From: Alistipes sp.
GTDB lineage: Bacteria; Bacteroidota; Bacteroidia; Bacteroidales; Rikenellaceae
Direction of reading: 5' to 3'
Length of the DNA: 19,014 nucleotides
Assembly: GCA_017391665.1 (NCBI GenBank)
Contig: JAFOXS010000120.1
Location: 1 to 19,014, forward strand
Part shown: piece after piece, positions 326 through 17,686 of the stretch
How the letters are laid out: each line of letters opens with the position of its first letter
Numbering within the stretch: the first letter of the stretch is position 1
Position numbers and translations under genes: made by a program
The notes under the pieces: generated by a model
Databases searched by the model: none
The model's input: only the letters and a program-made list of their open reading frames with translations
What the model was told of the DNA's origin: nothing

Positions 326-327
326 AT

Positions 328-834: not shown

Positions 835-858
835 AAAAGGTGTCGCATGACACCTTTT
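835..858. terminator. Bidirectional rho-independent terminator
   Basis: A perfect 10-bp inverted repeat, AAAAGGTGTC (835-844) and GACACCTTTT (849-858), has a 4-nt GCAT loop. The A/T ends of the arms give a U-tract in either direction, so it can end both the rightward kdsC-ybaK transcript and the leftward methyltransferase transcript. It touches both stop codons (834 and 859), which fits a shared terminator between convergent genes. Confidence 0.9.
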
Positions 859-2007: not shown

Positions 2008-2375
2008 TACTTCATAAAGACAAAATATACGGCCATAATCAGGCATACGAAGGCCGCCAGGTGGTTCCAGTGCAGTGCCTCGCCACGGAAGAATACGGTG
2101 GTGAATACGGTGAAGATAATCAGCGTAATAACCTCCTGCATCACCTTGAGCTGCATCAGCGTGAAGGGACCTCCGTTATCGACAAAACCGATGCGGTTGG
2201 CCGGAATCTGACACGAGTACTCGGCAAGGGCAATGCCCCACGAAAAGAGGATGACCAGATACAGAGGCCACGACTCGATAAGTTTCATCTGCTGCAGCTT
2301 CAGATGGCCGTACCATGCGAAGGTCATGAAGACGTTCGATACGACGAGCAGCAGAATGGTGTACAATGCTTTCAT
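2007..2375 (-). CDS. DUF486 / DMT-like small integral membrane protein
   Basis: A 122-aa protein with four predicted membrane segments (about residues 4-22, 34-52, 70-93 and 101-120). The WYGHLK motif after the first segment and CQIPANRIGF followed by QLKVMQEVITL are characteristic of the DUF486 family, which is related to drug/metabolite transporters of the small multidrug resistance fold. No function is established for the family. The stop overlaps the ATG of the methyltransferase (TAATG), implying co-translation. A TATATTTG box sits 31 nt upstream of the start, so the pair can be transcribed independently of comEC. Start choice is simple because the first Met precedes the first membrane segment. 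Confidence 0.85.
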   Translation of the reverse strand: MKALYTILLLVVSNVFMTFAWYGHLKLQQMKLIESWPLYLVILFSWGIALAEYSCQIPANRIGFVDNGGPFTLMQLKVMQEVITLIIFTVFTTVFFRGEALHWNHLAAFVCLIMAVYFVFMK

Positions 2376-2405
2376 TTCGACTTAATTATAACTTCTTTCG
2401 GGCGG

Positions 2406-2413
2406 CAAATATA
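2406..2413 (-). promoter_or_regulatory. Bacteroidetes-type -7 box for the DUF486 gene
   Basis: On the minus strand the sequence is TATATTTG, an exact match to TAnnTTTG, 31 nt upstream of the DUF486 start and inside the gap after the comEC stop. No convincing -33 TTTG lies at the expected distance, so this is a probable but one-sided match. Confidence 0.5.
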
Positions 2414-2430
2414 GCCTTTTTTTCGTAAAG

Positions 2431-3954
2431 TTATTCCTCTTTGCGGTGCAACTGCCCTGAAAACCTGCTTAAAGAGGGCATCTCCCATGCCCAGAGCGTG
2501 AGCGTAAAGATGAAGAGCAGGGCATATATCGCATAGCACCACCCGCGGCTGATGCTTGCCTCAGCCCATAACATCCCACTCTCGGCAGCCCACGTAGCAA
2601 GCCCGTTCATAGCCTCTGTTGCCTGCTCGATGATCCACGCCACGATGCCCTGTAGTGGCGCAATGGGGAAGAGAACCCATAGCAGTGTCGTGCCGACAAT
2701 TACTGCACACAGAGGCACCATCAGCGGACTGAGCAAAATACCCCACAGGCTCATCGTGCAGAATGTGTAGCTCACAAGGGGCATGGTCGCAGCCGTGGCA
2801 GCTATGCTCACGCCTATGGCGGTCATTGTGCGTTGGGAGAGTCGGCGCACGGCGTCGCGCCATATACTATGCGAGGGTAGCAGTTGTCGTGTCGCCTGCA
2901 TGTAGGGCACAACCCACAGGAGGATTGCGGCAACGGATAGAAACGATAGCTGGAAGCCCACGTCGTGCAGCGTGCGAGCATCTATGGTAAGCATCACGAA
3001 GGCTATGAATGCCAGTGAGTTGAGGCTCCGTGCCGAGGAGTATAGCGATACGGCCACCTGCACGATTGAGAACATCGTGGCGGCACGTACCACCGATGGC
3101 GAGAAGTCGGCCAGCGCGGCATAGATCCATATGGCTATGACGATCATTAGGCTTCTTATTATCTGCCCGCCACGCAGCAGCGTAGTGACGGAGAGGAGCA
3201 GATTCAGTATTGCAAATATAAATCCCACGTGCAGTCCCGATACCGCCAGCAGATGCGCCCCGCCGCTTAACGAGTAGGCCGTCTGCAGCTCCTCGGTGAC
3301 GGCATCTCTCTGGCCTATGCTTACAGCACTTGCCACCATTGCAGTCTGGGGCGAAAGTCCTAACCTTGAGATGCGGCGCTCTGCCGCTGCTTGCAGGCGT
3401 CCGATAAGGCTTATGGGTGCAGTGCGTCGATGCAGTATATTGTCGGCGGAGATGAAGATCTGGGCAGAAAAACCCTGCGCTGCCATGTAACGTCCCTGCG
3501 CCGAACCCCGCTCGAAGGGGCGAGCCGTGGCCACCACCAGTATGCGGTCACCCTGCTCGATTGGTACGTCTGACGAGATGCGCACATCGGCCCGAGAACG
3601 ATAACGCTTGCCCTCATGCATAAAAGCCACCACACGCCCCTGGGCTGTTGTGCGGCTATCATTAATCCTTATGATGCGCCTTATCTCGATCTCCATCTCT
3701 CCATGCTCGGGCAGCGAGGGCGCCGAGCGCAACGTAGCACTCACCACGCCAGCCGCGACGATGGCCAGTAGCAGCAGATAATCACCGCCATAGCGCATTG
3801 TCAGTATAATCATCAGCACAAATATAGCTATCGCTGCCGCTGCCGATACGCCCATCCACTCGCCCAGCAGTATGCCCACAATAAGGGCCGGCAGGGCGCT
3901 GAGCATGGGTGCCGTGCGCAGGAGGCGGAGTATGTTTTCAAAGATTAGCTTCAT
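2431..3954 (-). CDS. comEC: ComEC/Rec2-family DNA-uptake membrane protein, short form
   Basis: Inner-membrane channel of the ComEC/Rec2 family, which moves single-stranded DNA into the cell during natural transformation. From the chosen ATG (507 aa) there are N-terminal membrane helices (about 15-75). A soluble DUF4131-like segment follows (about 85-175, including the DRILV strand and FERGSAQGRYMAAQGFSAQI). The Competence domain contains the signature HLLAVSGLHVGF at residues 234-245, then many helices including VGFQLSFLSVAAIL. The metallo-beta-lactamase domain that follows in Bacillus ComEC is absent; the protein ends soon after its last helix with a short basic tail. The frame extends 13 codons upstream, but that would start inside a terminator hairpin, so the internal ATG is preferred. 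It lies directly downstream of the phage cassette on the same strand. Confidence 0.88.
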   Translation of the reverse strand: MKLIFENILRLLRTAPMLSALPALIVGILLGEWMGVSAAAAIAIFVLMIILTMRYGGDYLLLLAIVAAGVVSATLRSAPSLPEHGEMEIEIRRIIRINDSRTTAQGRVVAFMHEGKRYRSRADVRISSDVPIEQGDRILVVATARPFERGSAQGRYMAAQGFSAQIFISADNILHRRTAPISLIGRLQAAAERRISRLGLSPQTAMVASAVSIGQRDAVTEELQTAYSLSGGAHLLAVSGLHVGFIFAILNLLLSVTTLLRGGQIIRSLMIVIAIWIYAALADFSPSVVRAATMFSIVQVAVSLYSSARSLNSLAFIAFVMLTIDARTLHDVGFQLSFLSVAAILLWVVPYMQATRQLLPSHSIWRDAVRRLSQRTMTAIGVSIAATAATMPLVSYTFCTMSLWGILLSPLMVPLCAVIVGTTLLWVLFPIAPLQGIVAWIIEQATEAMNGLATWAAESGMLWAEASISRGWCYAIYALLFIFTLTLWAWEMPSLSRFSGQLHRKEE

Positions 3955-3960
3955 CACTTG

Positions 3961-3968
3961 CAAAAATA
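3961..3968 (-). promoter_or_regulatory. Possible -7 box for comEC, very close to the ATG
   Basis: Minus-strand TATTTTTG matches TAnnTTTG and lies only 6 nt upstream of the comEC ATG at 3954. It overlaps the T-tract of the phage-cassette terminator. Used as a promoter it would give a nearly leaderless mRNA. T-runs match this consensus easily by chance, so confidence is low. Confidence 0.35.
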
Positions 3969-3975
3969 CAAAAAA

Positions 3976-4001
3976 GTGCGACAGATTCTCCACTGTCGCA
4001 C
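3976..4001 (-). terminator. Rho-independent terminator of the phage cassette
   Basis: A perfect 9-bp stem, GTGCGACAG (3976-3984) with CTGTCGCAC (3993-4001), has an 8-nt loop and is followed on the minus strand by TTTTTTG. It sits 17 nt past the stop of the last phage gene and before comEC, closing the roughly 9-kb leftward transcript. Confidence 0.88.
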
Positions 4002-4013
4002 CTAAACAATAAG

Positions 4014-4027
4014 GGGATTAAAATCCC
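4014..4027. repeat. Short palindrome over the P5-like stop codon
   Basis: GGGATT (4014-4019) and AATCCC (4022-4027) form a 6-bp palindrome with a 2-nt centre, covering the stop codon of the last cassette gene just before the terminator. It may help stabilise the 3' end; it may also be chance. Confidence 0.4.
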
Positions 4028-4419
4028 GTCAGGTCAAATCCATGCTCCACCTCCGAGCGCCGTGCTGCGCATCCATTCTCGATGCGCGACATAGCCGCCA
4101 CAATGGGCACCATCACTCGTCGAGAGCGGGTATCTATCCGCTCGTCGGGGCGTATGCCCGTCATATCGCACACCGTATCGATGTAGAGTGCCGTATGGTT
4201 CTCCGAGGGTGGGGCGTAGCGTGCGATCATCTCGCTGAGGGTTCGCAGCCCGTAGCGCACACGATAGGTGTCGAGCAGGATGAATATCGCCCTGTATCCC
4301 CACTCCATCGCCTCGAACTGCTTGAATGACTCATCCGTCGATGGGTGGCACTCGCCCTTGTAGCGCACTCGCGAGCGGCGTATGTTGCCCGGATTGCAGT
4401 TTGCTATGCCGCGGCTCAT
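4018..4419 (-). CDS. P5-like phage structural/muramidase-type protein
   Basis: A 133-aa protein of the group annotated in Bacteroidales prophages as 'structural protein P5', after the PRD1 virion protein. It is usually found beside holins and thought to act at the cell wall or in the virion. The start MSRGIANCNPGNIRRS carries the hallmark NPGNIR (residues 9-14). FEAMEWGYRAIFILLDTY (36-52) and RYAPPSENHTALYIDTV (67-83) follow, both conserved in the family. The frame is open a further 78 codons upstream, but that is Arg/His/Cys-rich antisense-like sequence inside the holin gene; the ATG at 4419 forms an ATGA overlap with the holin stop. This is the last gene of the cassette. Cell-wall hydrolysis is inferred from the family and its position; I cannot identify a catalytic residue with confidence. 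Confidence 0.75.
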   Translation of the reverse strand: MSRGIANCNPGNIRRSRVRYKGECHPSTDESFKQFEAMEWGYRAIFILLDTYRVRYGLRTLSEMIARYAPPSENHTALYIDTVCDMTGIRPDERIDTRSRRVMVPIVAAMSRIENGCAARRSEVEHGFDLTGF

Positions 4420-4838
4420 CTCTCCACCTCCTTTCTCACGCGGTGACGCACATAACGCCTCAGGTAACGAAACAGCGGTGCATCGCTGATGCGGCAGGCA
4501 TTTTCCAGAAACGACCACATCTCCACACCGCACACAAAGCCTGCGAAGAGTTTTGTGATGTTGAGCTGCAGGAAATCGAGCATCACCGCATCTATGGCGT
4601 AGGCCATGTAGAGTGCGATGATCGACAGTGCCAGCTTCTGCACCGTGTGCCATGCTTCGCGGCTCTCAAAGTACCATCGGCGACCCTCGCGCTGTGCATC
4701 TGCGCGCGAAGCCACCACGCCCGTCAGAAAGTCGAACGTGATAAACCCCACCACACAACCTGCCAGCGGAGCTATCGGTGCCGCCAGCGCCAGCAGCGCC
4801 GCCACTATGCCGCTAAAGTATCTGTACAAGGCCTCCAT
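4416..4838 (-). CDS. Phage holin family protein
   Basis: A 140-aa membrane protein resembling the phage_holin_4 (toxin secretion/phage lysis holin) type, which makes inner-membrane lesions to release an endolysin. Hydrophobic segments lie at about residues 8-28, 27-45, 66-88 and 92-112. FDFLTGVVASR (about 35-45) and a later EMWSFLENACR (about 105-115) resemble the conserved D-x-x-TG and E-x-x-S-x-x-EN blocks of that family, and a charged tail (RRYVRHRVRKEVER) follows. It overlaps the preceding connector gene by 26 nt and shares ATGA with the downstream P5-like gene, so all three look translationally coupled. Holin-before-lysin order supports a lysis module. Family assignment is good; lytic activity is inferred. 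Confidence 0.75.
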   Translation of the reverse strand: MEALYRYFSGIVAALLALAAPIAPLAGCVVGFITFDFLTGVVASRADAQREGRRWYFESREAWHTVQKLALSIIALYMAYAIDAVMLDFLQLNITKLFAGFVCGVEMWSFLENACRISDAPLFRYLRRYVRHRVRKEVER

Positions 4839-5289
4839 TGCATCGACATCGGTTTAGAATGTTCTCCTCACTGCTATACTCCCTGTACTCTGCGGCATGC
4901 TGCTCCAGATGCTCCGACAATCGCTCCCGCATAGCGTTTGCACGCAGTCGCAGGGCTCGTTGTAGCTCTGCGCGAGCCTTCCCATCGGCAGCCTTGTGGT
5001 GACTGCCTGCGGGAGAGGAGAGTCCCAGTTGTGAGGTCTGCACATTGAGCCTGGGCTGAACCAAAAGTCGTGTGCACATGGCCACTGCGGGGATGATGTA
5101 CTCGGTCTTTAGCTCTGCGTAGCGCCCCTTCTCCACCTCGTCGAGCAGTGCCTGCCCCACGATGGGGCGAATCCATAGCTCCGTAGCTGCTGAGATGTCA
5201 GCCGTGCCGATAGCCTCCGATGAGAGCCACTCGCCGTCACCAAATGCTATGGCAACGACCTCTGCGGGTGTTATAATATTCTGTGCCAT
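4813..5289 (-). CDS. Head-tail connector-like phage protein (DUF6712-like)
   Basis: A 158-aa, mostly helical soluble protein just downstream of the portal gene. The pattern ITPAEVVAIAF near the N-terminus, then AATELWIRPIVGQALLDEVEKGRYAEL and a conserved EYIIPAVAMCTRLL helix, resembles small connector or adaptor proteins of Bacteroidetes prophages (DUF6712-like). These are thought to sit under the portal, like gp6/gp15-type adaptors. The long charged helix in the C-terminal half (KARAELQRALRLRANAMRERL) fits this. Its last 8 codons overlap the holin start region. It begins 2 nt downstream of the portal stop. The connector role is inferred from position and helical character; the recognised similarity is from memory and not tested. 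Confidence 0.5.
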   Translation of the reverse strand: MAQNIITPAEVVAIAFGDGEWLSSEAIGTADISAATELWIRPIVGQALLDEVEKGRYAELKTEYIIPAVAMCTRLLVQPRLNVQTSQLGLSSPAGSHHKAADGKARAELQRALRLRANAMRERLSEHLEQHAAEYREYSSEENILNRCRCNGGLVQIL

Positions 5290-5291
5290 AG

Positions 5292-6515
5292 TTAGTTGAT
5301 TTTGGTTACGTTATACTTCGTGATCTCCGACAGGAAAGCCTGCTGGCGCTCATCCTCGGCATCGTACTCCAGACCGTCAGCCTTGCGAGCCTCCCACACC
5401 TTCATGTAGATGGGCTTCGAGCGTGTAGGCGGACGGTTCACAATCTCGAGCGATGAGCAGTCGATACCTGCCACCTCCTGCATCAGTCGTCGGATGGGGG
5501 CGAGCAACTCCTCCTGCTCGGCCAGAATCACGGTGTTGAGTGCCACCTCATACTCGTGCAGGATGCGCTCGGCGCTGAATCCCGCCGAGTAGTCCAGACC
5601 ACTGAGCGAGCGGAACCACGAGTGGGCAATCACTATATCGCTCGTGGCCTGGTCGTGCAGCGTGCTCCAGTCGCCCTCGTTGTTCGACTCGAGGGGTATG
5701 AATCGCGATGAGTTGCCCTCCTCGCCACCACCCACGACAAACATCACCTGTCCTGGTGTGCCGGCAAAGCGCTTCTCGGCTGTCTGCACCAGTCGCTCGG
5801 CCTCGGCTTCGCTCGCCATCTCCGCATCAAGCATCATGATGCCCGAGAGCTGGAACGAGTTGTCCAGTCGCGATATGTTCCAGCAGTCGGTCTTGTAGGC
5901 TATGGCCGATACGCCCATGCCGGCTATGTACTTCGGCACGCCGTAGTGCGAGAACATGGGCTCATACTCCTTGTAGTGGATAATGGAGCGCAGCGAGCCG
6001 TCGCTCTGCTTCTCAAATCGGGGGTAGAGTGGCAATGTCTGTGCCTCCTCCGCCCGAAAGGCGCTCCAGTCGTGGTGCAGCAGCACATGCTCGGAGTCGC
6101 GTGCCAGACGACAGCGCGAAGCATCCTGATGGTGCAGCGAGAGGAACGAGTGAGCCTGGTCGGTCACCACCTCCAGAAAGGCATTGCCCATCAGCGCCTT
6201 GTCGAAGGCCAGGCGGTAGAGCACACGCCTAAGCGAGTCGCCCTCGCCATTGGCACTCTCGACCATCGAGCGCAGAAGCGGCTCTTGCTCGTCGAACGAG
6301 AAACCCTTGCCGGCGATGTAGTCGGCCTTGTCGTTAATGATTCGTCGGTGTGTGGTCGAGCGGCGCGACATGAGCGAGAGAGCATAAGGGAGCATATTGT
6401 CGTCGCCCCAGCGCCAGAACTTCTCGCTCTGCACCCTCTGCGATGAGAGCGCAAAGAGAGACTCTGCCTTGCGGTTTGTTACCGCCACCATACTCTTTGT
6501 TTTTCTCTTTTCCAT
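5292..6515 (-). CDS. Phage portal protein
   Basis: A 407-aa portal protein, the dodecameric ring at one capsid vertex through which DNA enters and leaves the head. The N-terminal signature FWRWGDDNMLPYALSLM (residues about 33-49) is typical of Bacteroidetes prophage portals. TTHRRIINDKADYIAGKGF (about 54-72), the helix-rich wing (LAFDKALMGNAFLEVV) and a clip/stem segment (RILHEYEVALNTVILAEQEELLAPIRRLMQEV) follow. Length is at the low end of the usual 400-550 aa. It follows the 149-aa gene by 13 nt and precedes the connector by 2 nt. No terminase gene is adjacent, which is unusual because the large terminase normally sits just upstream of the portal. The start is the first Met, just before a basic stretch (EKRKTK). 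Confidence 0.85.
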   Translation of the reverse strand: MEKRKTKSMVAVTNRKAESLFALSSQRVQSEKFWRWGDDNMLPYALSLMSRRSTTHRRIINDKADYIAGKGFSFDEQEPLLRSMVESANGEGDSLRRVLYRLAFDKALMGNAFLEVVTDQAHSFLSLHHQDASRCRLARDSEHVLLHHDWSAFRAEEAQTLPLYPRFEKQSDGSLRSIIHYKEYEPMFSHYGVPKYIAGMGVSAIAYKTDCWNISRLDNSFQLSGIMMLDAEMASEAEAERLVQTAEKRFAGTPGQVMFVVGGGEEGNSSRFIPLESNNEGDWSTLHDQATSDIVIAHSWFRSLSGLDYSAGFSAERILHEYEVALNTVILAEQEELLAPIRRLMQEVAGIDCSSLEIVNRPPTRSKPIYMKVWEARKADGLEYDAEDERQQAFLSEITKYNVTKIN

Positions 6516-6528
6516 ATTTCATTCAATT

Positions 6529-6978
6529 TTACTGATCCAATGCCGATGAGGTGTCGCGCGACGAGAGCGTCAGCACCACCTTCGGCTGCTCCTGTGGTCG
6601 GCTTCCCGAGTGGAATGAAAGCGAATGTAGGCGCAGTGCCCGCTCAAATCCGAAGTGCGGACTCCAGCCCACTATAAGTTCCTCGCCCGAGCTTAGACGT
6701 ATGCGTGCCGCGACGCCCTCGGCGGCAGCACGTTGCAGGAACTCTGCGTTGCGCCATGCTGCCGTGAGGTTGCGATCGGAGCAGAGGGTGAGCGTATGCT
6801 CTACGCTCACGGGAAGACCCGAGGCCTTGGTTTGCTCGTCGTAGTGCGAGCCATCATCCATCAGGCTCACCTCCACACCCTCTCCTGGCGTCATATCCTC
6901 CACTCCTCGAAGGCCGTGTACCGCGAATAGCTCTGCGTGGGCAACGCCGCCCACGGGTTTAAATCTCTTCTCGGTCAT
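6529..6978 (-). CDS. Unknown phage-cassette protein, possibly tail tube-like
   Basis: A 149-aa protein I do not recognise with certainty. It lacks signal peptide and membrane segments and is predicted largely beta: FKPVGGVAHAELFAVHGL, VEVSLMDD, VSVEHTLTLCSDRN, then IRLSSGEELIVGWSPHFGFERALRLHSLSFHSGS and a last strand PKVVLTLSSRD. Size and beta-rich pattern with an early GG resemble phage tail tube or head-tail joining proteins. Its place between capsid and portal genes, 12 nt after the capsid stop, fits a head-proximal structural role. No catalytic motif is visible. Alternatives are a capsid decoration protein or a neck protein. Confidence 0.45.
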   Translation of the reverse strand: MTEKRFKPVGGVAHAELFAVHGLRGVEDMTPGEGVEVSLMDDGSHYDEQTKASGLPVSVEHTLTLCSDRNLTAAWRNAEFLQRAAAEGVAARIRLSSGEELIVGWSPHFGFERALRLHSLSFHSGSRPQEQPKVVLTLSSRDTSSALDQ

Positions 6979-6990
6979 GGCTCACTGTCT

Positions 6991-7983
6991 TTAGTCGGCG
7001 TTGATGTAAGCCGTTACCAACTCCTCATCCAGAATCTCGCAGCCGATGGCGAAGACGGCTCGCTGGCGGTTCTCCATCTGGTCGGGGTTGTACCACATGC
7101 GGATCTCCGAGCCGGGGCTGTCGGCCGTATTCACGGCCATCACCATGTTACGACGGTCGGTGAAGATGATGAAGTCCTTCGAGAGCGACGACTCGCCGAT
7201 GGCGGGATCTACGTTCACCTCGATGACGGGGAAGCCACGGTACATGAGCTGCGGGCGACCTGTCTGGCAATCCTGGTACGATGCTGCGCCATATGCGCTG
7301 TCCAGATAGTTCTGGTAGTAGGCATAGATGCGGGGCGATACGAAGAATGCCACCTGACCCTCGGGGAAGAGACCCTTCAGACGGGGGCTGGCATCGTTCA
7401 CGATGTCGGAGAAGATCTCGCCCAAGCTCATGTCGCTGAGCAACACCTCCAGCTCCTTCGAAGAGTTGGCAATCTCGCCGCTTTTCACACGCTCGTTGAT
7501 GAGCTTGAGCAGGCCGTCGAAGCTGGTGTAGCCGGTGTTCAGCGTGCCACCCTTATCGCCGAGCCAGAGGTTCATGCGGATCGACTCGGCAATGGCCTGA
7601 CGGAAGAGTTCGGTCTCGGCTGCCTCGAGCTCGGTGCCCGACAAATCCTCCATGTTGACGTCCGAGCGGTTGGTGATAAGCTCGAAGATAGTCGAGAAGT
7701 AGTCGCTTGCAGCAAAGGCATTCTCGGCCTTCACGCGAGCCATGGGGATGGTCTTCTGATAGTGGGTTGTCTTCACTCCACCCTCCCAGTCGGTTGCCTG
7801 GTCGAAGGGTGTAAGTACGTTGCCCTTACGATCCCAGATCTGCACCACGGTAGGCATGGGCATGTTGTAGAGGATGCGGATACCAAGCGACTCAGCCGAA
7901 GGGCCGGTCAAAAGGGGACGGAAAAAGATGGTCTCGAGTTCGTGACCTGAATAGTTCTTGGGGTTTACAATAATGCTTGACAT
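6991..7983 (-). CDS. Major capsid protein, HK97 fold
   Basis: A 330-aa major capsid protein expected to build the icosahedral shell. The order fits the HK97 fold: an N-terminal arm with IFFRPLLTGPSAESLGIRILYNMPMPTVVQIW, an E-loop region (VLTPFDQATDWEGGVKTTHY), a spine helix containing LEAAETELFRQAIAESIRMNLWLG, and the A-domain strand VAFFVSPRIYAYYQNYL. YRGFPVIEVNVDP and FIIFTDRRNMVMAVNTADSPGSEIRMWYNPD near the C-terminus are typical of Bacteroidetes prophage capsids. There is no room for a cleaved N-terminal delta (scaffold) domain, so scaffolding is probably supplied by the C-terminus of the protease gene just upstream. The reading frame is intact throughout. Confidence 0.85.
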   Translation of the reverse strand: MSSIIVNPKNYSGHELETIFFRPLLTGPSAESLGIRILYNMPMPTVVQIWDRKGNVLTPFDQATDWEGGVKTTHYQKTIPMARVKAENAFAASDYFSTIFELITNRSDVNMEDLSGTELEAAETELFRQAIAESIRMNLWLGDKGGTLNTGYTSFDGLLKLINERVKSGEIANSSKELEVLLSDMSLGEIFSDIVNDASPRLKGLFPEGQVAFFVSPRIYAYYQNYLDSAYGAASYQDCQTGRPQLMYRGFPVIEVNVDPAIGESSLSKDFIIFTDRRNMVMAVNTADSPGSEIRMWYNPDQMENRQRAVFAIGCEILDEELVTAYINAD

Positions 7984-8027
7984 AATGTGTTGTTTGTTAG
8001 TTGGTTAATAATGGTTGAATGAAACGG

Positions 8028-8180
8028 TTAATATTTGCCGAAGGCCTTGGCATCGGCCGCATAGGCCTCCTCGTTGGCACGCAGCAGCGGCTGATTCATC
8101 GAGGGATCCTCTGCCGGCTTGACCTTCGATGAGGAGTATCGGCGCTGCCCCTCATCAAAGGCACAATCGACTTTGTGGGG
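8028..8180 (-). pseudogene. Displaced C-terminus of the protease/scaffold gene in the -1 frame
   Basis: In the frame -1 relative to the protease, translation from about the C4 run at 8177-8180 gives an acidic, Ala-rich tail. It includes FDEGQRRYSSSKVKPAEDPS and LLRANEEAYAADAKAFGKY before a TAA at 8028. It resembles the natural end of a scaffold or protease protein and closes the gap to the capsid gene. It has no convincing start of its own; the only nearby Met (MNQPLL) would give 23 residues. Restoring one C to the C4 run on the minus strand would join the frames cleanly. Whether this is a real mutation, a sequencing error or a recoding site cannot be told from one sequence. Confidence 0.55.
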
Positions 8181-9001
8181 CTCTGCGCCGCAGCCTGTGG
8201 CAGCGTCTCCTGCTCCTGCGTAGCCTCTTTCTCGGCACGCCTGGCCTCGCGCTTTTCCATATGCTTTTCGTGCAGGCGCTCCAGCCACTCCTCGATGCGG
8301 TAGGCCAGGCGACCCAGCAGGTAGCGGATTATCTCGCCCGCAGCCGAGTTTTCCACCTGAGGGATATCCACATCCGAGGGTGTATCCTCCTTCTCGGGCA
8401 CAAGCACACCCGTAATCAACGGGTCGGTGATGCAGTCGGCAAGGCCTGCCGCTACGGTCTCCTCGGCTGTGAGCCAGCGGCCCTCGCCATTGTTCTCGGC
8501 CATCAGGTCGGCGAAGTACTGCGCATCGCGACCCGAGTGCAGGGCGTAGAGTGATGCCAGTCGCTCGTCGGTCTTGCGCAACAGGTCGGCACGTGCATCG
8601 AGCGATGAGGCGTTACCCTCGATCGAGCATGTCGATTTGTGAATCAGATACATGGCGTTGCTCGAAATCTCGCGGCAACCGTCGTTGGCAGCCTGTGCTA
8701 TAATGGTTGCGGCCGAGGCAGTGTAGCCGTAGCAGCGCGTGGTGATGTGGGCGTCGAGTCCCATCAGTGCATCGTAGATGAGCAGCGCATCGTTCACGTC
8801 GCCACCCGTCGAGCGGATGTTCACCACCACCTTCGTGGCGGCAATCTCGGCTATGCGTGCCACCTCCTCGCGAAAACGGTCAAAGGTGGCAATGCGTGTG
8901 GATGCATTCTCAAACTGATGCTGCTCGGGTACACCTATCGTACCCTCGATGTCGATGTAACATGTGTGGGCTTCATTTCTGATAGTGATTTTGGTTTGCA
9001 T
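8096..9001 (-). CDS. ClpP-like prohead protease (probably frameshifted near the 3' end)
   Basis: As the sequence stands this is a 301-aa ClpP/S14-type serine protease, the class that matures phage proheads. Visible marks are the strand VVVNIRSTGGDVNDALLIYDAL (about 58-79), the nucleophile loop GYTASAATI with Ser96, YLIHKS with His121, and WLTAEETVAAGLADCI near the end of the domain. The usual catalytic acid before the Trp is not obvious. After about residue 205 comes a long charged helix (EEWLERLHEKHMEKREARRAEKEATQEQE) and a Pro/Ala linker, as in protease-scaffold fusions. The last 28 or so residues are basic and unlike phage scaffold tails, while the overlapping -1 frame encodes a better C-terminus ending 44 nt before the capsid start. 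I therefore infer a one-base loss near 8150-8215; the original product would be about 324 aa. Confidence 0.7.
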   Translation of the reverse strand: MQTKITIRNEAHTCYIDIEGTIGVPEQHQFENASTRIATFDRFREEVARIAEIAATKVVVNIRSTGGDVNDALLIYDALMGLDAHITTRCYGYTASAATIIAQAANDGCREISSNAMYLIHKSTCSIEGNASSLDARADLLRKTDERLASLYALHSGRDAQYFADLMAENNGEGRWLTAEETVAAGLADCITDPLITGVLVPEKEDTPSDVDIPQVENSAAGEIIRYLLGRLAYRIEEWLERLHEKHMEKREARRAEKEATQEQETLPQAAAQSPTKSIVPLMRGSADTPHRRSSRQRIPR

Positions 9002-9035
9002 TTTGTCTCTTTACATCTTTTTTTAGGTTTAACAA

Positions 9036-11357
9036 TTAATCTTCTGCCATGCGCACAAACTCGCAGTGTGCGCTCTGCGTCGTGGCATCGTAGCCTCTTA
9101 CCCTGCGCAGATAGTATGAGGCTCGCTGCCCTGCGATGTTGATTCGGAACCTTAGGCGCGCTCCACCTCCCTGCTGCACCTGGGAGAGTGGCGGCAGAGC
9201 ATGTGCTGGCAGGGTTAGGTGTACGCCCAGGCGTCGTCGCATGGCCTGCTCCTGCCACTCACGCTGGTAGTAGCGGTGGAGTCCCGACACCCCATCCCTC
9301 TCCTCGAAGCAGAGCGTGAATTCACCTGGCGAGTGAAATGCTGCGTAGGGGTACTCCCCGCCAAAGGATGGTGCTCCCCACCTCTCACCCTCGGGCAGAG
9401 GTCGCATACCCTCATATCGCACCACGCGCATCGAAACCTCACCCACGCTGTCGGCATCACGATCACCCACCTGCATGATGCGCGCCGACGGAGCCGATGC
9501 GTAAATCCCCGTAGCCGATATCGTAGGGCAGAAGAGTGGGTTGACCCTTCTCTGGCGTCCCATCGTGGCGACGTACGATTCAATGGTTGTGCTCCACTCT
9601 CCGAATACCTCGCCGCTTTGGGCATTGTATCGTGCCACGGCACCATCACCCTCTGCGCGGTAGCATAGCGTGCGGTTGTGACGCACCTCTGCGGCCAGGT
9701 CGGTGGCTCGAATCTGCTTGTTGCGATCGACATAGATGCTCACGTCGCGCAACTCACCATCGTAGAAGTCGTCATAGGGCTCGATGTAGACGCACTTCGA
9801 TGCTTCACACGTGGCAAGGCGCAGGTTGAACATCTGCTGCACCGCCTCCACAAACTCACGCTGCGTAGCCTCGTGTGCAAGGATATTCTCCGCCGAGAGC
9901 ATCGATCCCGCCGCCGGCGAGGAGTAGAACAGTGGTCGCAGCGTGCAGAGCGGCGATAGTGTCACCCGCTGTCCCTGCTGGGCGCCGTGCAGATACATCT
10001 TCGTGAACTCCTTGCCATGCGAGGGTGTGAGATGCTCGGGCGGAGTCTGCAGCGTCACCTCCACATCCATCACCCCCGTGGCCGCCACATGACCGTCGTA
10101 GATGGCCCAGTCGCCTGCATACTCCTCGCCACTGGAGGTGAGTAGCAGAGACTCGCCACCACTCAGCGCAGGCATGGTGAATGTCGTCTCGCTGGCCGTA
10201 ATGCTCTTGATGAGTGTATCCTTGCCTGCCGAGCGATAGATCAGGCGGAGCGTTGCACTGCTCTCATTGTCAAAGACAAAGCATTTGTACTGCACCTCTG
10301 CCGCAAGGCTTCTGCGACGATCTTTGTGGGGGTTGGCCAGCGGGATCTCCATATCGCAGCCCGTATCCACGTAGAGTCTGTCGAAACCCTGCAGTCGGCT
10401 GCTCGATACGATGCGGTACTCGGTCGAGTATTTGAGAAAGATCTCAAAACCTACGTTTGCCTCGACCTTGGGGTGGTACTCTACGCCCTCGTCGCCAATT
10501 AGCAGCACGCCACGATTGTTGTAGAGTTCACCACCCTGAGTCGTCTGCACGAAGTTGCCAAGCGATGAGGTGAGCACCAGCGGTGTCATCCACGCGCGAC
10601 CCATCGCATCAGCCGTGGTTGTGGCCTCGGATGTACGACCTGCCATGAAGCCCGACGAGTTCTCCAGTCGCGTGAGCGAACCGCCAGCCTTGGGGTAGCA
10701 GCCACTGAAGTAGAGTTTCCTAAACTCGTCGCTCTCCAGAAATCGGCTCTCAGTGGTGTAGCCCGCACCCTCAAATATTGCGCGGAGCATATCCCTCACC
10801 GATATGAAGGGGTGGTAGTCCGCCACGGTCATCACTCGCTGTGGCGCATAGAGCGATGTGGAGTCATAGCTCTCGCGGTAGTCGTCATGGCGTACGGGCA
10901 GAAAACGCACCGTCCTTTCGCCCTGCCAGCTATCCTCTATGGTCTGATAGCTGAGCGTGGACTCAAAACCGAGTGGCGCTTCGGAGAGCTTGCGCGAGGC
11001 TATGCGCTCCACCCAGTCGCCCGAGCCATCGCGTATCTCCACCACATAGTGGCCTACGCCCTGCCTTCCCTCAATGGCCTGCAGCGTTGCCCGGCCTGCG
11101 AGTAATTCCACGCCATCGACCACTATGCGTCCCGTGTGGAGTGAGGAGTTGAAGGCTATGGCCGTTGCGGGGTCGGCAGCAAACCCCATAATGTGGTCAT
11201 TCTGTGGCGATAGCGGCAGGCGCAGTGTGATGTGGCGCCCCTTGCGTGCTGCGTCAAGGTCATGAAATGCTTCAGCGTCGAATGTGAAGCACTCATCCCC
11301 GAGTCGGAACTCTGTGCCAAGGTCACACCGCTGGTTGTCGATCATAATCTCTACCAT
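9036..11357 (-). CDS. Large phage tail protein (Bacteroidetes baseplate/distal tail type)
   Basis: A 773-aa tail protein. The N-terminal pattern resembles large tail proteins of Bacteroidetes siphophages, which assemble at the distal tail: ITLRLPLSPQNDHIMGFAADPATAIAFNSSLHTGRIVVDGVELLAGRATLQAI (about 42-94). There an early strand, a 'P.(T/S)..N....F' turn, FN and a 'dG..v..G...L' hairpin recur. The middle (about 190-440) contains ISVRDMLRAIFEGAGY and many beta strands. The part from about 500 on has AVQQMFNLRLATCEASKCVYIEPYDDFY, suggestive of a hub-type domain. It overlaps the upstream gene by 7 nt; a second ATG four codons in (11345) would avoid this. No tape-measure gene is present, which such a protein would normally follow. 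The specific role (hub, distal tail or receptor contact) is inferred. Confidence 0.6.
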   Translation of the reverse strand: MVEIMIDNQRCDLGTEFRLGDECFTFDAEAFHDLDAARKGRHITLRLPLSPQNDHIMGFAADPATAIAFNSSLHTGRIVVDGVELLAGRATLQAIEGRQGVGHYVVEIRDGSGDWVERIASRKLSEAPLGFESTLSYQTIEDSWQGERTVRFLPVRHDDYRESYDSTSLYAPQRVMTVADYHPFISVRDMLRAIFEGAGYTTESRFLESDEFRKLYFSGCYPKAGGSLTRLENSSGFMAGRTSEATTTADAMGRAWMTPLVLTSSLGNFVQTTQGGELYNNRGVLLIGDEGVEYHPKVEANVGFEIFLKYSTEYRIVSSSRLQGFDRLYVDTGCDMEIPLANPHKDRRRSLAAEVQYKCFVFDNESSATLRLIYRSAGKDTLIKSITASETTFTMPALSGGESLLLTSSGEEYAGDWAIYDGHVAATGVMDVEVTLQTPPEHLTPSHGKEFTKMYLHGAQQGQRVTLSPLCTLRPLFYSSPAAGSMLSAENILAHEATQREFVEAVQQMFNLRLATCEASKCVYIEPYDDFYDGELRDVSIYVDRNKQIRATDLAAEVRHNRTLCYRAEGDGAVARYNAQSGEVFGEWSTTIESYVATMGRQRRVNPLFCPTISATGIYASAPSARIMQVGDRDADSVGEVSMRVVRYEGMRPLPEGERWGAPSFGGEYPYAAFHSPGEFTLCFEERDGVSGLHRYYQREWQEQAMRRRLGVHLTLPAHALPPLSQVQQGGGARLRFRINIAGQRASYYLRRVRGYDATTQSAHCEFVRMAED

Positions 11358-12325
11358 AGCAGCACGCCCTCCTCAGCGGCACGAATATCTACCTCGATGA
11401 TTCCCATCTGCTCGCTCGGCGAGAGCATCACGCGGTCGGTAGTGAGTTCAACGCCCTGAATATCACCTCCCTCGACGAGCCATACGCGTGGTGAGGAGAG
11501 TATCTCCGCCAGTGCCTTGAGTTGTTTTTCGGGTTCATAGGCCGAGAGCAGTTTCAGCTCGCTGCGACTCTCCACTGCCGCCGCCTCGCGACCCCATATG
11601 CTCGCCATGTGGTGACGTGTGGCCTCGACTAGCACGCCCTTGCGCAGAGGGAAGGTGTAGAGCTCGGGTGCGAGTTGTCTGTTGAGCCACGCCACACGTC
11701 GTGCGCTGAGAAGATTCTGCTTCATCTCGTATTCGATCACGGTGTCGGCTCTGCCATCGATCTTTACCGTCACTCGAATCGTATCCACCCCCTCTCTACC
11801 TCGGGCCGTCACCGCCACGGCTCGCTGACCGCCCGAGGGAGGGGTTATGGTTATGCACTCGGTGCCGTAGCCGATAAATTCGACATCGAAGCTCACCACT
11901 ATGTCGGGCCATGTGAAATAGGAGATGATGTCAAATTCATCGCGCTCCATCGTGCGGTGCAGCTGCTGCGATGTGAGGAGCGTGTAGAGCGCATCACGAT
12001 CAACGGATGCGGCTATGAAGTTGCGCGATGAGGATGTCTTGCCCTCGGCTTCAACCACCACCTTTATCGTTGCGTTGGTCTCCACCTCGCCGCACTCGGT
12101 GATCGCTGTGGGCAGCGTGGGGCGTGCTGCCGAGCGAAGGTAGGGGGCAATGTCTATCTCGCCCGTGGTGACGTTGTATAGCCGTTTGCGGCCAATCTCC
12201 TCGCCCGTGGTGCGGTTTATAATCTTCAGCTCCACGTCGTGGGGCGTTGTGCTCTCTGTGTCAAAGGCGTAAATCAGGGGCTCCCGAAACGAAGAGTATG
12301 CCTCGGGAATAGATGTAAATTTCAT
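11351..12325 (-). CDS. Phage tail-associated beta-rich protein
   Basis: A 324-aa protein in the phage cassette. Alternating strand patterns indicate several Ig-like or beta-sandwich domains: LIYAFDTES followed by DVELKIINRTTGEEIGRKRLYNVTTGEIDIAPYL (about 17-64), and IVVSFDVEFIGYGTECITITPPSGGQRAVAVTARG (about 142-176). The N-terminal layout, with an early 'P..EP..Y.F', 'G..I.....Y....G...ID..PYL', is like minor tail proteins next to the large tail protein in Bacteroidetes prophages. It lacks transmembrane or signal sequences, as expected for virion proteins. It starts 18 nt after the preceding gene and overlaps the 773-aa gene start. Minor tail or baseplate function is inferred from position and fold pattern only. 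Confidence 0.5.
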   Translation of the reverse strand: MKFTSIPEAYSSFREPLIYAFDTESTTPHDVELKIINRTTGEEIGRKRLYNVTTGEIDIAPYLRSAARPTLPTAITECGEVETNATIKVVVEAEGKTSSSRNFIAASVDRDALYTLLTSQQLHRTMERDEFDIISYFTWPDIVVSFDVEFIGYGTECITITPPSGGQRAVAVTARGREGVDTIRVTVKIDGRADTVIEYEMKQNLLSARRVAWLNRQLAPELYTFPLRKGVLVEATRHHMASIWGREAAAVESRSELKLLSAYEPEKQLKALAEILSSPRVWLVEGGDIQGVELTTDRVMLSPSEQMGIIEVDIRAAEEGVLLW

Positions 12326-12343
12326 GTTGTCAACGGTTTATTG

Positions 12344-12748
12344 TTAGAAGAATGTGATCACCTCGGCTGTTGCCGTTGCTGCCACCTCGCCTGCGGCCGA
12401 GAGCGTCTGCGAGGAGTGTTTGATCTTCAGGTTCTCTACGGCAATTACATAATCCTCCTTCGAGAGCGAGGCGAAGAGCCCAAGCAGATCCTGCTCCAGC
12501 GTCGCCTGGCGTGTATTGCGCTCCGTGGGCGAAAGTTTGGCTCCGGCATCAAGAGCGTGCGTTGTTACGGTGTAGGTGATTGTTCCGTGTGTGCGTCCCA
12601 CCATCGACTGAAATAGTGGCGGCGTAAGCCATAGTGCAGGGTAGGTGTGGACGAGTTGCGGGATGTACCTCTCGTCGGTGGAGTGAAACGCATAGCCATT
12701 GGCCGTTGCACTCTGCTCGAAGGAGTGAAGAAGTTTTGTTCTGTTCAT
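12344..12748 (-). CDS. First gene of the phage cassette, tail-completion-like protein
   Basis: A 134-aa protein (MNRTKLLHSF...) beginning the leftward cassette. The pattern YPALWLTPP (about 44-52), then GTITYTVTTHAL, ERNTRQATLEQDLLGLFASLSKEDYVIAVENLKIKH and a closing TLSAAGEVAATATAEVITFF, is reminiscent of small tail-terminator or tail-completion proteins in Bacteroidetes prophages. There a beta strand plus the helix 'R...LE.D....L..L' and a final 'GE.A..A.....TFF' recur. The frame is open back to 12889, but the extra residues look like leader sequence with hairpins, and the ATG at 12748 follows the last hairpin, so I chose it. Function is inferred and uncertain. Confidence 0.5.
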   Translation of the reverse strand: MNRTKLLHSFEQSATANGYAFHSTDERYIPQLVHTYPALWLTPPLFQSMVGRTHGTITYTVTTHALDAGAKLSPTERNTRQATLEQDLLGLFASLSKEDYVIAVENLKIKHSSQTLSAAGEVAATATAEVITFF

Positions 12749-12767
12749 TGTTTTAGGGGTGTTAGGG

Positions 12768-12793
12768 GTCGGAAACCGACATTTATCGGTTTC
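12768..12793 (-). promoter_or_regulatory. Overlapping alternative hairpins before the first cassette gene
   Basis: Two inverted repeats share bases. GAAACCGA (12772-12779) pairs with TCGGTTTC (12786-12793), a perfect 8-bp stem with a 6-nt loop. GTCGG (12768-12772) pairs with CCGAC (12776-12780), 5 bp with a 3-nt loop. They cannot form together, and they end 20 nt before the ATG at 12748. A translation or attenuation switch is possible. Confidence 0.45.
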
Positions 12794-12831
12794 AAAATGT
12801 TTATAAAATTGTTGAATTGTTGTGTTGCCTG

Positions 12832-12843
12832 TGTTGATAAGTT
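12832..12843 (-). repeat. Direct repeat copy 1, DnaA-box-like
   Basis: On the minus strand this reads AACTTATCAACA, repeated exactly at 12943-12954. It contains TTATCAACA, one base from the DnaA box TTATCCACA. It lies in the untranslated leader of the phage cassette. Confidence 0.5.
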
Positions 12844-12916
12844 CCAACCAATGGGTCAGAATCATCAGACAATCAGCGGAATCGGGCACACTCTGCGGCG
12901 TGTTGAAAAGCCCGTA

Positions 12917-13003
12917 TTACAGATGTAATCTCGCTGTTGATATGTTGATAAGTTGTCGGCATGAACCTTCATTATGCCGAGATTGTGGAGGGTGCAGTTT
13001 CAT
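12917..13003 (-). CDS. Possible 28-aa leader peptide
   Basis: A short frame, MKLHPPQSRHNEGSCRQL followed by ten more residues to a TAA at 12917, begins within the leader of the phage cassette. It spans the hairpin at 12956-12980 and one DnaA-like repeat. It is polar and basic with no membrane segment. There is no clear ribosome binding site, and a frame this short is expected by chance, so it is only a candidate upstream ORF. Confidence 0.15.
   Translation of the reverse strand: MKLHPPQSRHNEGSCRQLINISTARLHL
12943..12954 (-). repeat. Direct repeat copy 2, DnaA-box-like
   Basis: Second exact copy of AACTTATCAACA on the minus strand, 111 bp from the first and followed at once by a further half copy, TATCAACAG. 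Function unknown; an origin-like or protein-binding role is only a possibility. Confidence 0.5.
12956..12980 (-). repeat. Leader hairpin, 7-bp stem
   Basis: TCGGCAT (12956-12962) and ATGCCGA (12974-12980) are perfect inverted repeats with an 11-nt loop in the cassette leader. There is no T-tract on either side, so it is not a standard terminator. Confidence 0.45.
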
Positions 13004-13033
13004 AATGTTGCAAGTTCAATAATTTAATACGTT

Positions 13034-13105
13034 GTCGTAGTCGCCCACGAGAGCCTTGAGATTTCCTAAACGTGGCTGTGTTGCCCTCTCGTGGCGACTA
13101 ACGAC
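13034..13105 (-). promoter_or_regulatory. 20-bp imperfect inverted repeat at the 5' end of the cassette transcript
   Basis: GTCGTAGTCGCCCACGAGAG (13034-13053) is the inverted complement of CTCTCGTGGCGACTAACGAC (13086-13105) except for one extra base in each arm, leaving a 32-nt loop. The right arm ends 4 nt from the -7 box at 13110-13117, so the predicted transcript starts with or within this hairpin. That placement suggests mRNA protection, a structured regulatory leader or a small RNA rather than termination, because no T-tract follows. A protein-binding operator is also possible. The arms do not flank the promoter, so it is not an invertible promoter. Confidence 0.75.
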
Positions 13106-13109
13106 ACTG

Positions 13110-13141
13110 CAAATATAATACATCAAAATCCGTTTGTCAAG
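13110..13141 (-). promoter_or_regulatory. Strong Bacteroidetes promoter for the phage cassette
   Basis: On the minus strand a TTG at the -33 position (CTTG, 13138-13141) is followed after 20 nt by TATATTTG (13110-13117), an exact TAnnTTTG -7 box at canonical spacing. AT-rich sequence (13142-13185) upstream could act as an UP-like element. The start would fall near 13100-13105, giving a leader of about 350 nt before the first gene at 12748. Confidence 0.8.
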
Positions 13142-13312
13142 TAATTTAACAATAAAAATTCAATTATTTATCAAATTATTTAACTCTGCCGCCTCTAATT
13201 TGCTCTTTTCCAGCGAGGTCTGCGAGGGTAAAATTTTTGCACAAAAACACCCCTTTTTCTCCCTAAAGCGGTGAAATCGGCAAAAAAGCTCTGTAATTCC
13301 AACTATTATTTG
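13142..13312. other. AT-rich divergent intergenic region
   Basis: This lies between the leftward phage-cassette promoter and the rightward flippase promoter. It has an AT-rich block (13141-13185) with the imperfect direct repeat CAATTATTT / AAATTATTT, then a mixed stretch with a T-run and a C-run (13249-13263). I see no ORF, no RNA gene and no recognisable att site or direct repeat shared with the left border of the cassette. Confidence 0.5.
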
Positions 13313-13320
13313 TAACTTTG
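13313..13320 (+). promoter_or_regulatory. -7 box of the flippase-dut operon promoter
   Basis: TAACTTTG is an exact TAnnTTTG match 86 nt upstream of the flippase ATG. No clean -33 TTTG is seen 19-21 nt upstream, so the promoter is probable but incomplete. It would start an mRNA with a leader of about 80 nt. Confidence 0.6.
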
Positions 13321-13346
13321 CAAGTCATAGCGCGCAATGTGCGCGT

Positions 13347-13384
13347 GCGCTCGCGTACGTAATTGAGCCGAGTTAGGCGAGCGC
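13347..13384 (+). promoter_or_regulatory. GC-rich hairpin in the flippase leader
   Basis: GCGCTCGC (13347-13354) pairs perfectly with GCGAGCGC (13377-13384), an 8-bp all-G/C-rich stem with a 22-nt loop, 22 nt upstream of the ATG. Just 5' is alternating purine-pyrimidine sequence (13330-13350) that can form a competing hairpin, CGCGCA/TGCGCG. A post-transcriptional control role is possible. Confidence 0.5.
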
Positions 13385-13406
13385 CACGACCAAATGAAGT
13401 AAAAGA

Positions 13407-14885
13407 ATGCTTGAAAAGTTAGCCAAACAGACCGCCATCTATGGCATCAGCACCATTGTCGTGCGACTGCTGAGTTATCTGCTCACGCCGCTCTATACGC
13501 GTGTGTTCGGTCAGGCAGCCTACGGCATTGTGACCGATGTCTATGCGCTCATACCCTTTGCGCTGGTGCTGCTGTCGATGGGTATGGAGTCGAGCTACTT
13601 CCGCTTTGCTGCCAAGGCCGAGGCCGAGGGAGGCCGCGATAAGGAGATAAGAGGTAAGAAACGCCATCTCTTTGCCACAACCTGGGGTGCTACGCTGGTA
13701 GCTTCAAGTATCTTCTTTGTGCTGGTGGTGCTGTTCCGCTCGACGATTGCCCGCTGGATGGGTGATGCATATGTGGGCAACGAATTGTATGTGGTGCTGG
13801 TGGCTATGATCATCCTCTTCGATGTGGCGACGATGATTCCCTTCTCGCGTCTGCGTGAGCAGGGTCGGGCCCTGAAGTTCGTTACGCTGAAAGCGTGCAA
13901 TGTGGTTATCAACGTCACGCTGGCCGTGATTTTTCAGGCTACGGGACTCTTTGAGTCGGACTTTGGTGTTGGATGGGTCTTCGTGACAAACCTTGTGGCG
14001 AGCGTTGCTACATTCCTGCTCATATTGCCCACTACCGAGCGCACCGTGCCTCGTATTGACCGATCTCAACTGCGCCGTATCCTGGCCTACTCGCTGCCGC
14101 TGTTGGTGGGAGGCATTGCCGGCACGGCCAATGAGTTTATCGACCGCCAGATGATCAAGTACCTGCTGCCCGAGGATATATCGATGGCGCAGCTCGGCAT
14201 CTACGGTGCTATTACGAAGATTGCCGTTGTGATGACGCTCTTCACGCAGATGTACCGCCTTGCAGCCGAGCCATTCTTCCTTGCTAACTTCTCGAAGGAG
14301 GAGTTCATTGAGTCGAATGCCGCTGCGCTCAAATACTATATGATGGCCTCGATGATGATCTTCCTCGGTATCGCCCTCTTCCGCGACGTGTTTGCGCTGA
14401 TTGTGGGACGCGACTTCCGCGAGGGTATCTTCATCCTGCCCGTCATCCTGGGTGCCAATGTGCTGGCTGGCGTGTGGCTCAACCTCTCGTTCTGGTATAA
14501 GCGTGAGGAGAAGACCCGCTTCGCCGTCTATGTCACCTTCGTGGGACTTATCGTGACCATCGTTGCCAATGTCGCGCTGCTGCCCCGCTGGGGTTACTAC
14601 GGCGCTGCGTGGGCCCGCTTTGTGGCCGAGGCGGCTATGGTGGCGGTGAGCTACTATCTGAATCGCCGTTACTTCCCTACGCCCTACGATGTGCGCCGTA
14701 TCGCAGAGTATGTGGTGCTGGGTGTGGCTTTGTTCTTTGTGAGCGAGGCGCTGCTGCCGCATGTGAGTGGCGTTGTGGAGTATGGAATGAATATCGTGAT
14801 CTTCCTGCTCTTTGTGGCCTATGCCGTGTGGCGTGAGAAGATTGATTTACGGGCCCTTGTGCGCTCGGCACTACGCAGAAGATAA
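13407..14885 (+). CDS. Oligosaccharide flippase (MOP/Wzx-like)
   Basis: A 492-aa integral membrane protein of the MOP exporter superfamily, the Wzx/RfbX-type polysaccharide flippases that move lipid-linked oligosaccharides across the inner membrane. It starts MLEKLAKQTAIYGISTIVVRLLSYLLTPLYTRVFG, the usual first helix and 'P.yT..f' turn. It has about 12-14 hydrophobic segments, with the conserved YSLPLLVGGIAGTANEFIDRQMIKYLLP block mid-protein (about 230-257) and AAWARFVAEAAMVAVSYYLNRRYFP near the end, followed by a basic cytoplasmic tail. It is the first gene of the rightward operon, with a 5' hairpin leader; dut follows after 18 nt. In other Bacteroidales a flippase-dut pair is common, as recalled from known genomes. 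The transported substrate is unknown. Confidence 0.85.
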   Translation: MLEKLAKQTAIYGISTIVVRLLSYLLTPLYTRVFGQAAYGIVTDVYALIPFALVLLSMGMESSYFRFAAKAEAEGGRDKEIRGKKRHLFATTWGATLVASSIFFVLVVLFRSTIARWMGDAYVGNELYVVLVAMIILFDVATMIPFSRLREQGRALKFVTLKACNVVINVTLAVIFQATGLFESDFGVGWVFVTNLVASVATFLLILPTTERTVPRIDRSQLRRILAYSLPLLVGGIAGTANEFIDRQMIKYLLPEDISMAQLGIYGAITKIAVVMTLFTQMYRLAAEPFFLANFSKEEFIESNAAALKYYMMASMMIFLGIALFRDVFALIVGRDFREGIFILPVILGANVLAGVWLNLSFWYKREEKTRFAVYVTFVGLIVTIVANVALLPRWGYYGAAWARFVAEAAMVAVSYYLNRRYFPTPYDVRRIAEYVVLGVALFFVSEALLPHVSGVVEYGMNIVIFLLFVAYAVWREKIDLRALVRSALRRR

Positions 14886-14903
14886 GACTAAAAACAAGAT
14901 ACT

Positions 14904-15335
14904 ATGAAAGTAAAAATCGTAAACAATTCGCGCTTTGCGCTTCCCGAGTACCAGACACCCCTGTCGGCTGGTCTGGATATCCGTGCTAACCTCGACGAGT
15001 GCGTAACCCTCCGTCCGCTCGAGCGAGCTATGATTCCTACGGGACTTTTCGTTGAGCTTCCCGAGGGTTGCGAGATGCAGATTCGTCCCCGCAGTGGTCT
15101 GGCTGCCAAGCATGGCATCACGGTGCTGAACTCACCCGGCACCATCGACGCCGACTATCGTGGCGAGATCAAGGTTATCCTGGTGAACCTTAGCAATGAG
15201 CCCTTCACCATCGAGGCTGGCGAGCGCATTGCACAGATGATCGTTGCTCGCTACGAGCAGATCGAGTGGCAGGCCGTTGAGGAGTTGAGTGCAACAGAGC
15301 GTGGTGCCGGCGGCTTCGGCTCTACGGGCAAATAA
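14904..15335 (+). CDS. dut: dUTP diphosphatase
   Basis: A 143-aa trimeric dUTPase that hydrolyses dUTP to dUMP and pyrophosphate, keeping uracil out of DNA and supplying dUMP for dTMP synthesis. All five family motifs are intact: SAGLDIRA (21-28), RPRSGLA (61-67), [14 protein letters not shown] (78-91, with the catalytic Asp), ERIAQMI (107-113), and the C-terminal [10 protein letters not shown] (133-142) that closes over the nucleotide. Length is typical for bacterial dut. It starts 18 nt after the flippase stop, preceded by an A-rich stretch instead of a strong Shine-Dalgarno. The cyclophilin gene follows after 13 nt. Confidence 0.96.
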
Positions 15336-15348
15336 ACAGACGAGCGGA

Positions 15349-16053: not shown

Positions 16054-16055
16054 AA

Positions 16056-17683: not shown

Positions 17684-17686
17684 GTT

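Follow-up and report, generated by a model that had tools for sequence, protein, structure and literature searches.

Within the 19,014-nt stretch of Alistipes sp. DNA analysed here (assembly GCA_017391665.1, contig JAFOXS010000120.1, positions 1 to 19,014; hereafter the window), ten minus-strand genes of capsid, tail-tip and lysis type lie between a conserved promoter and a terminator (Table 1). We consider it likely that this cassette is one half of a domesticated phage, comprising capsid, predicted tail-tip and lysis genes, that the terminase and repressor half resides elsewhere in the genome, and that the two together constitute a gene transfer agent (GTA) packaging host DNA into short-tailed particles. 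The best reading of the data is a family-wide, split-locus, GTA-like system with a reduced tail. We put at about even the chance of a wider proposition, namely that a Bacteroidota GTA spans a whole gut family, having discarded its tape measure and moved its terminase to a distant locus under a repressor cleaved upon DNA damage, with Rikenella and Millionella keeping only head, portal and terminase.

An earlier sequence-only reading had described a capsid, tail and lysis unit running from promoter to terminator without terminase, tape measure or integrase in the window, and all ten genes and both signals were found. No terminase, tape measure, integrase or repressor was detected inside the window. 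The promoter (TTGACA-17-TATATT, 13140-13112) agrees with the consensus at 11 of 12 positions, and its TTGACAA/TAnnTTTG pair precedes gene A in 31 of 38 loci; a longer capsid-promoter pattern occurs once in the window's own genome and once each in five of seven other genomes. The terminator comes from a scan in which the overall count of terminator-like sites was not above that of shuffled sequences. Pfam assigned host genes to both flanks: Competence (ComEC) below the cassette, and polysaccharide flippase, dUTPase, prolyl isomerase, DNA polymerase III delta' and HPPK above it. Phage-derived head and tail genes thus stand in a host chromosome, as in a GTA. Direct repeats of at least 14 bases pairing the two flanks were not found, nor were an integrase or att sites, the marks of an active prophage, at the window locus (Pfam on proteins and repeat scan). 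Likewise, no Pfam match to integration or replication genes was obtained among the ten cassette proteins and five proteins of a second locus, the set covered by this search.

This second locus (L085, contig C231 of the same genome) encodes an intact large terminase (TerL, 1635-3044; PHROG, 2e-84), a 98-aa protein whose gene overlaps the TerL start and is, by position only, a candidate small terminase, and a divergently transcribed repressor (3439-4155). The sequence-only claim of no terminase and no repressor therefore stood for the window and fell for the genome; the search of the remaining genome that it had proposed found both genes at this conserved locus, and the split-locus GTA-like element among its suggestions fits this arrangement. 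Among 26 family genomes, 24 contained exactly one copy of the terminase family PF03237, one had four and one had none. By homology, a terminase was detected in 134 of 150 family genomes and in 95 of the 99 good ones, counts that take short or weak matches in G014, G023 and G075 as present. Compared with the other 19 fetched copies, TerL of the window's genome shows 51-75% identity to 18 and 59% to the remaining one (L096). The Walker A motif PPQHGKS and the acidic residues are invariant in all 20 copies; the 98-aa gene occurs at 16 and the repressor at 18 of the 20 terminase loci.

Capsid and terminase genes occurred together in 128 genomes, the capsid gene alone in three, the terminase gene alone in six and neither in 13 (Fisher p 7e-12, which overstates independence because the genomes are related). 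They lie at most 2.2 kb apart in seven Rikenella/Millionella-like genomes of two genera (G007, G013, G027, G033, G040, G062, G068) and 9-20 kb apart in eight genomes (G028, G037, G057, G059, G063, G065, G071, G100). In the window's genus, both were on one contig in four genomes (G123, G112, G087, G101), separated by 112 kb to 2.6 Mb. Judging from these positions, the split loci are one cluster that came apart. A terminase, as expected of a GTA, is thus encoded, unlinked to the capsid genes in this genus.

The 131 of 150 family genomes with the capsid gene include 95 of the 99 good ones and represent 17 of 22 genera; a single match was obtained in 128 of these 131 carriers. This is not the patchy presence across strains that characterizes an active prophage. 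Searching 295 genomes of the order returned four matches, three in Rikenellaceae and a partial one outside the family, and named records assign the family as Rikenellaceae (Alistipes, Tidjanibacter, Rikenella and Millionella). All ten genes occur in the same order in 24 of 54 named loci, many of the incomplete ones being cut by contig ends or having genes missed at the search sensitivity. The genes present keep the cassette order in 51 of the 54, the three exceptions being Rikenella loci. In Rikenella and Millionella loci only protease, capsid, portal and connector were detected, and in eight Rikenella/Millionella-like genomes the full hub was not found, with weak partial matches in three. Several entries filed as viruses also carry the cassette (IMG/VR contigs L105-L112 and the GenBank clones MT838736 (L124, MT838736.1) and MT838805); these are probably pieces of Rikenellaceae chromosomes.

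Gene trees built from 16-20 genomes (18 of 20 for the repressor, 16 of 20 for the hub) largely followed the host. Splits shared with the rpoB tree numbered 13 of 17 for the capsid, 10 of 17 for the portal, 8 of 13 for the hub and 11 of 17 for TerL, against a label-shuffle maximum of 3, and 10 of 15 for the repressor, against a shuffle maximum of 4. Together with the presence in 17 of 22 genera, this shows the inheritance with the host lineage expected of a GTA. Furthermore, the ratio of non-synonymous to synonymous substitution rates (dN/dS) against the four nearest named relatives (L031-L034) was at most 0.33 for every cassette gene, the capsid giving 0.018-0.166 and the portal 0.030-0.169. 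In four other pairs, cassette values reached 0.37 (gene D); TerL gave 0.078-0.175, and the capsid among Rikenella and Millionella loci 0.055-0.080. These values are rough because dS was high in several pairs and saturated in some, and the pair L068/L070 was left out for saturated dS. Cassette genes and TerL are accordingly kept by purifying selection, a further property of GTAs.

A functionless old prophage remnant, kept by chance or hitch-hiking, would be in keeping with the broken protease frame in this metagenome-assembled genome (MAG), with the internal stop in the capsid gene of G005 and with the parts missing in some lineages. It is, however, already poorly compatible with dN/dS far below 1 for every cassette gene in the measured pairs and for the terminase, with the ten genes in one order at 24 of 54 named loci and with capsid frames open across 17 genera, G005 being the one listed place with an internal stop; we regard it as very improbable. 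The sequence-only reading had itself offered a satellite and a decaying prophage, neither of which agrees with the frequency of the capsid gene, the internal stop at just one listed place, its adherence to the host phylogeny and its low dN/dS. Of the findings it had named as fatal to its proposal, neither a recent prophage with att sites and a nearby terminase nor many disrupted frames in relatives was encountered, and its suggested comparisons yielded capsid and portal dN/dS far below 1 and a conserved synteny across Rikenellaceae. The cassette is neither a recent nor a decaying prophage.

The sequence-only reading had also noted that a tape measure is lacking; so far as our tests reach, this holds for the whole family. 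The place of the missing gene is marked by the environmental phage contigs L114-L117 (IMG/VR), which represent three or four phages because L116 and L117 look like one, and whose capsids are 25-32% identical to that of the window. Like the cassette, these phages have the order hub, slot, protease position, capsid, D, portal and connector; unlike it, they have the slot filled by a tape-measure gene of 1003-1010 aa, followed by an 80-84 aa open reading frame (ORF). The slot ORF of L117 is a tape measure (PHROG 5e-44, PF10145 4e-28). Profile matches were obtained for C, capsid, D and portal in all four contigs, for B and the connector in three, and for the ORF in the protease place in two. Another IMG/VR contig of 14.8 kb (L113) encodes a capsid 40% identical to that of the window, with protease, D, portal and connector and then other ORFs; it may be a further intermediate on the way from phage to domesticated cassette.

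Among 42 named Rikenellaceae loci, the slot between hub and protease is 6-125 bp long in 22 and 261-1456 bp long in 20, four loci without a detected protease being measured to the capsid gene. Larger slots often contain small ORFs, the second of which matches the phages' 80-84 aa gene 3' of the tape measure (hhalign probability 96.8). PF10145 exceeded the cut-off in seven of 26 genomes, with no one-per-genome pattern such as that of the terminase. No PF10145 tape measure was detected in the window's own MAG and no conserved tape measure was found elsewhere in family genomes, other tape-measure families being possible. For comparison, both a PF10145 tape measure and an integrase are present in a true prophage of G056. 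The protein that marks a long-tailed, siphovirus-type particle is thus not seen, the slot being empty or filled by small ORFs. In long-tailed phages the tape measure determines how long the tail is, and we therefore predict a very short one here. By position only, slot ORFs of 94-250 aa in other genera are candidate tape-measure stubs. A resemblance of their end motif to the phage tape-measure C-terminus was considered and rejected: the hhalign probability was below 1, 18 of 200 column shuffles scored as high, three other tape-measure windows scored higher, and no phage match appeared at E 10.

The missing tail parts might be supplied from outside, if the cassette were a satellite-like element or its genes were used by an ordinary prophage of the same cell providing tape measure and tail. 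Ordinary prophages with tape measure and integrase do exist in some family genomes, and the window's own MAG includes a 3.1-kb contig (L163, G000:C279:1-3100) with distant homologues of genes B and C, which probably stems from an ordinary prophage or from contamination. We nevertheless give this explanation scant credence, as 19 of 26 genomes lack a PF10145 tape measure above cut-off, and the system has its own terminase, shows no integrase match among the fifteen proteins searched and is inherited with the host.

The repressor beside the terminase combines helix-turn-helix (HTH) and S24 domains. The catalytic Ser is conserved in 16 of 18 copies, the Lys in 17 and the Ala-Gly site in 15, and the copy of the window's genome has the HTH, the Ser/Lys dyad and the Ala-Gly, the sequence hallmarks of a putative self-cleaving repressor of the CI/LexA type. 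RecA-stimulated self-cleavage is established LexA/CI biology, and by analogy the same would apply here; the system is probably triggered by DNA damage. The terminase promoter has a dyad, TTCAA-N3-TTGAA, beside its TAnnTTTG box. In the mechanism we propose, DNA damage would activate RecA, the repressor would cut itself at the conserved Ala-Gly and the terminase operon would be derepressed, while the capsid cassette would be switched on from its own conserved promoter. The terminase would then fill capsids with host DNA via the portal. Without a tape measure only a minimal tail of connector, gene B product and hub would form, holin and lysozyme would release the particles, and sister cells would take up the DNA. 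Altogether, the GTA-defining features open to sequence tests were found, and the system would work most like a GTA.

A particle domesticated for another use, for instance for killing, for delivery or as a decoy, would puncture neighbours with its hub and tube-like domain and contain packaged DNA only incidentally. The window does retain these two parts, and DNA packaging and transfer by the Rikenellaceae system are what we infer. We hold this alternative to be unlikely, though, because portal, head protease, capsid and a motif-intact terminase are conserved together, whereas tail-only killing particles do without heads. Moreover, Rikenella/Millionella-like genomes keep head genes and terminase while a convincing hub was not found in them, and a puncturing device would need the reverse.

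Several points weigh against a GTA. The system is known here from its genes, to which particles, packaged DNA and transfer are added by prediction. Contig C231 is assigned to the MAG, which is 80% complete with 3.8% contamination, by binning only. The protease is frame-broken in this MAG: the apparent indel of the sequence-only reading is real in this sequence, as ORF 8096-9001 continues as ORF 8028-8288, and relatives such as L032 have a single frame. Both loci are missing from eight genomes, which belong to four genera. In the window's genus, G046 (99% complete) retains a terminase (72% identical) but gave no match to capsid or hub, likely through secondary loss of the cassette. An operator common to the terminase and capsid promoters was looked for, and none was convincing. 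Finally, PMC12946183 reports that Rikenellaceae are abundant in total gut DNA and other families dominate the particle fraction, with differences that are not significant, and attributes GTA-like events mainly to Ruminococcaceae, Oscillospiraceae and Christensenellaceae.

Among the individual genes (Table 1), A, B, C and D had no Pfam match. The position of gene A suggests a tail-completion role, gene C models as a baseplate hub, and gene D may possibly form the tail tube. In the Alistipes sp. dk3624 group (L068 9655-9921, L070 9640-9951, L072 9606-9950), all that is seen of the protease ahead of the capsid gene is a C-terminal piece of 88-114 aa, and the capsid protein itself is extended by about 80 residues; it seems that the protease domain was lost and a scaffold-like end kept. 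The cassette leader (~13030-13110), just past the promoter, contains an inverted repeat with 9-bp perfect arms, absent from relatives scanned alike. ComEC, a DNA-uptake protein (window 2431-3993), adjoins the cassette. Of the 45 named loci whose flanks were long enough to tell, 14 have the same neighbour, in two cases pointing the opposite way. This neighbourhood could be relevant to DNA uptake or could simply be an inherited position.

Table 1. Cassette features in the window, by position.
Feature	Position	Strand	Evidence
Intrinsic terminator of the cassette	3974..4003	-	11-pair stem, then T run
Endolysin-type lysozyme, 133 aa	4018..4419	-	phrog_873 endolysin 2e-40 with the longer ORF 4018-4653; start from relatives
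Holin, 140 aa	4416..4838	-	PF05105 5e-9
Head-tail connector candidate (DUF6712), 158 aa	4813..5289	-	PF20459 3e-7
Portal protein, 407 aa	5292..6515	-	PHROG portal 4e-19; PF04860 (Phage_portal) 2e-8, below cut-off
Gene D, 149 aa	6529..6978	-	Homologous to a capsid-adjacent gene product of related phages; hhalign probability 98, E 3e-14
Major capsid protein, 330 aa	6991..7983	-	Weak PHROG head-family matches, best 2e-5; in 131/150 family genomes
ORF in another frame, conserved C-terminal end of the protease	8028..8288	-	Resembles C-termini of relatives
ClpP-type head maturation protease, end broken off by frame change	8096..9001	-	PF00574 2e-25; PHROG 8e-35; length comparison
34-bp junction, tape-measure slot of related phages	9002..9035	-	Phage order in L114-L117; gap sizes
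Gene C, 773 aa, predicted baseplate hub (gp27/gp44/VgrG-like) with inserted C1q/TNF-like domain	9036..11357	-	
Gene B, 324 aa	11351..12325	-	Ig-like N-terminal domains and tail-tube/distal-tail-like C-terminal domain
Gene A, 134 aa, family-restricted	12344..12748	-	Present in 38 loci, the window included; 70 relatives in databases, of which the few with names are all Rikenellaceae
Promoter TTGACAA...GTATTATATTTGC	13109..13140	-	11/12 to sigma-70 consensus

GTAs with proven function are few, and no GTA of Rikenellaceae or Bacteroidota was found in the literature, preprints and most subscription papers lying outside the search. The closest terminases among named phages are those of Bacteroides fragilis phages such as BF10P3 and B40-8 (~46-47% identity over 98%), whose records matched neither capsid nor hub; an unannotated 7.4-kb clone was the sole match to either in the phage collection at E 1e-5. 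RcGTA and its alphaproteobacterial relatives consist of vertically inherited, phage-derived head and tail genes plus a terminase in the host chromosome under purifying selection, in a mostly contiguous cluster with a tape measure and CtrA-type host control. The Rikenellaceae system, in contrast, lacks a tape measure and has a CI/LexA-type repressor beside its terminase instead. If the wider proposition is true, it would show a stepwise passage from a long-tailed phage to a nearly tailless DNA shuttle; because the series of phage, contiguous, split and head-only cluster survives in living genera, the order in which parts are lost on domestication is directly testable. The closest described layout, compared by description and not by protein sequence, is FpGTA of Faecalibacterium prausnitzii, for which PMC12946183 reports capsids of ~40 nm with no tails seen and packaging of ~9 kb of host DNA. 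The FpGTA host is a Firmicute, its terminase lies in the capsid operon and its particles are proven, whereas the Rikenellaceae terminase stands apart from the capsid genes, with the repressor, in a system known from genes. Both systems form two separate operons per genome, one of them with holin, endolysin and baseplate genes, and both are conserved in gut bacteria, FpGTA in a gut genus. In the gut DNA of PMC12946183, Rikenellaceae rank within the top three families by abundance; if active, the system would therefore offer genes a permanent path of exchange there.

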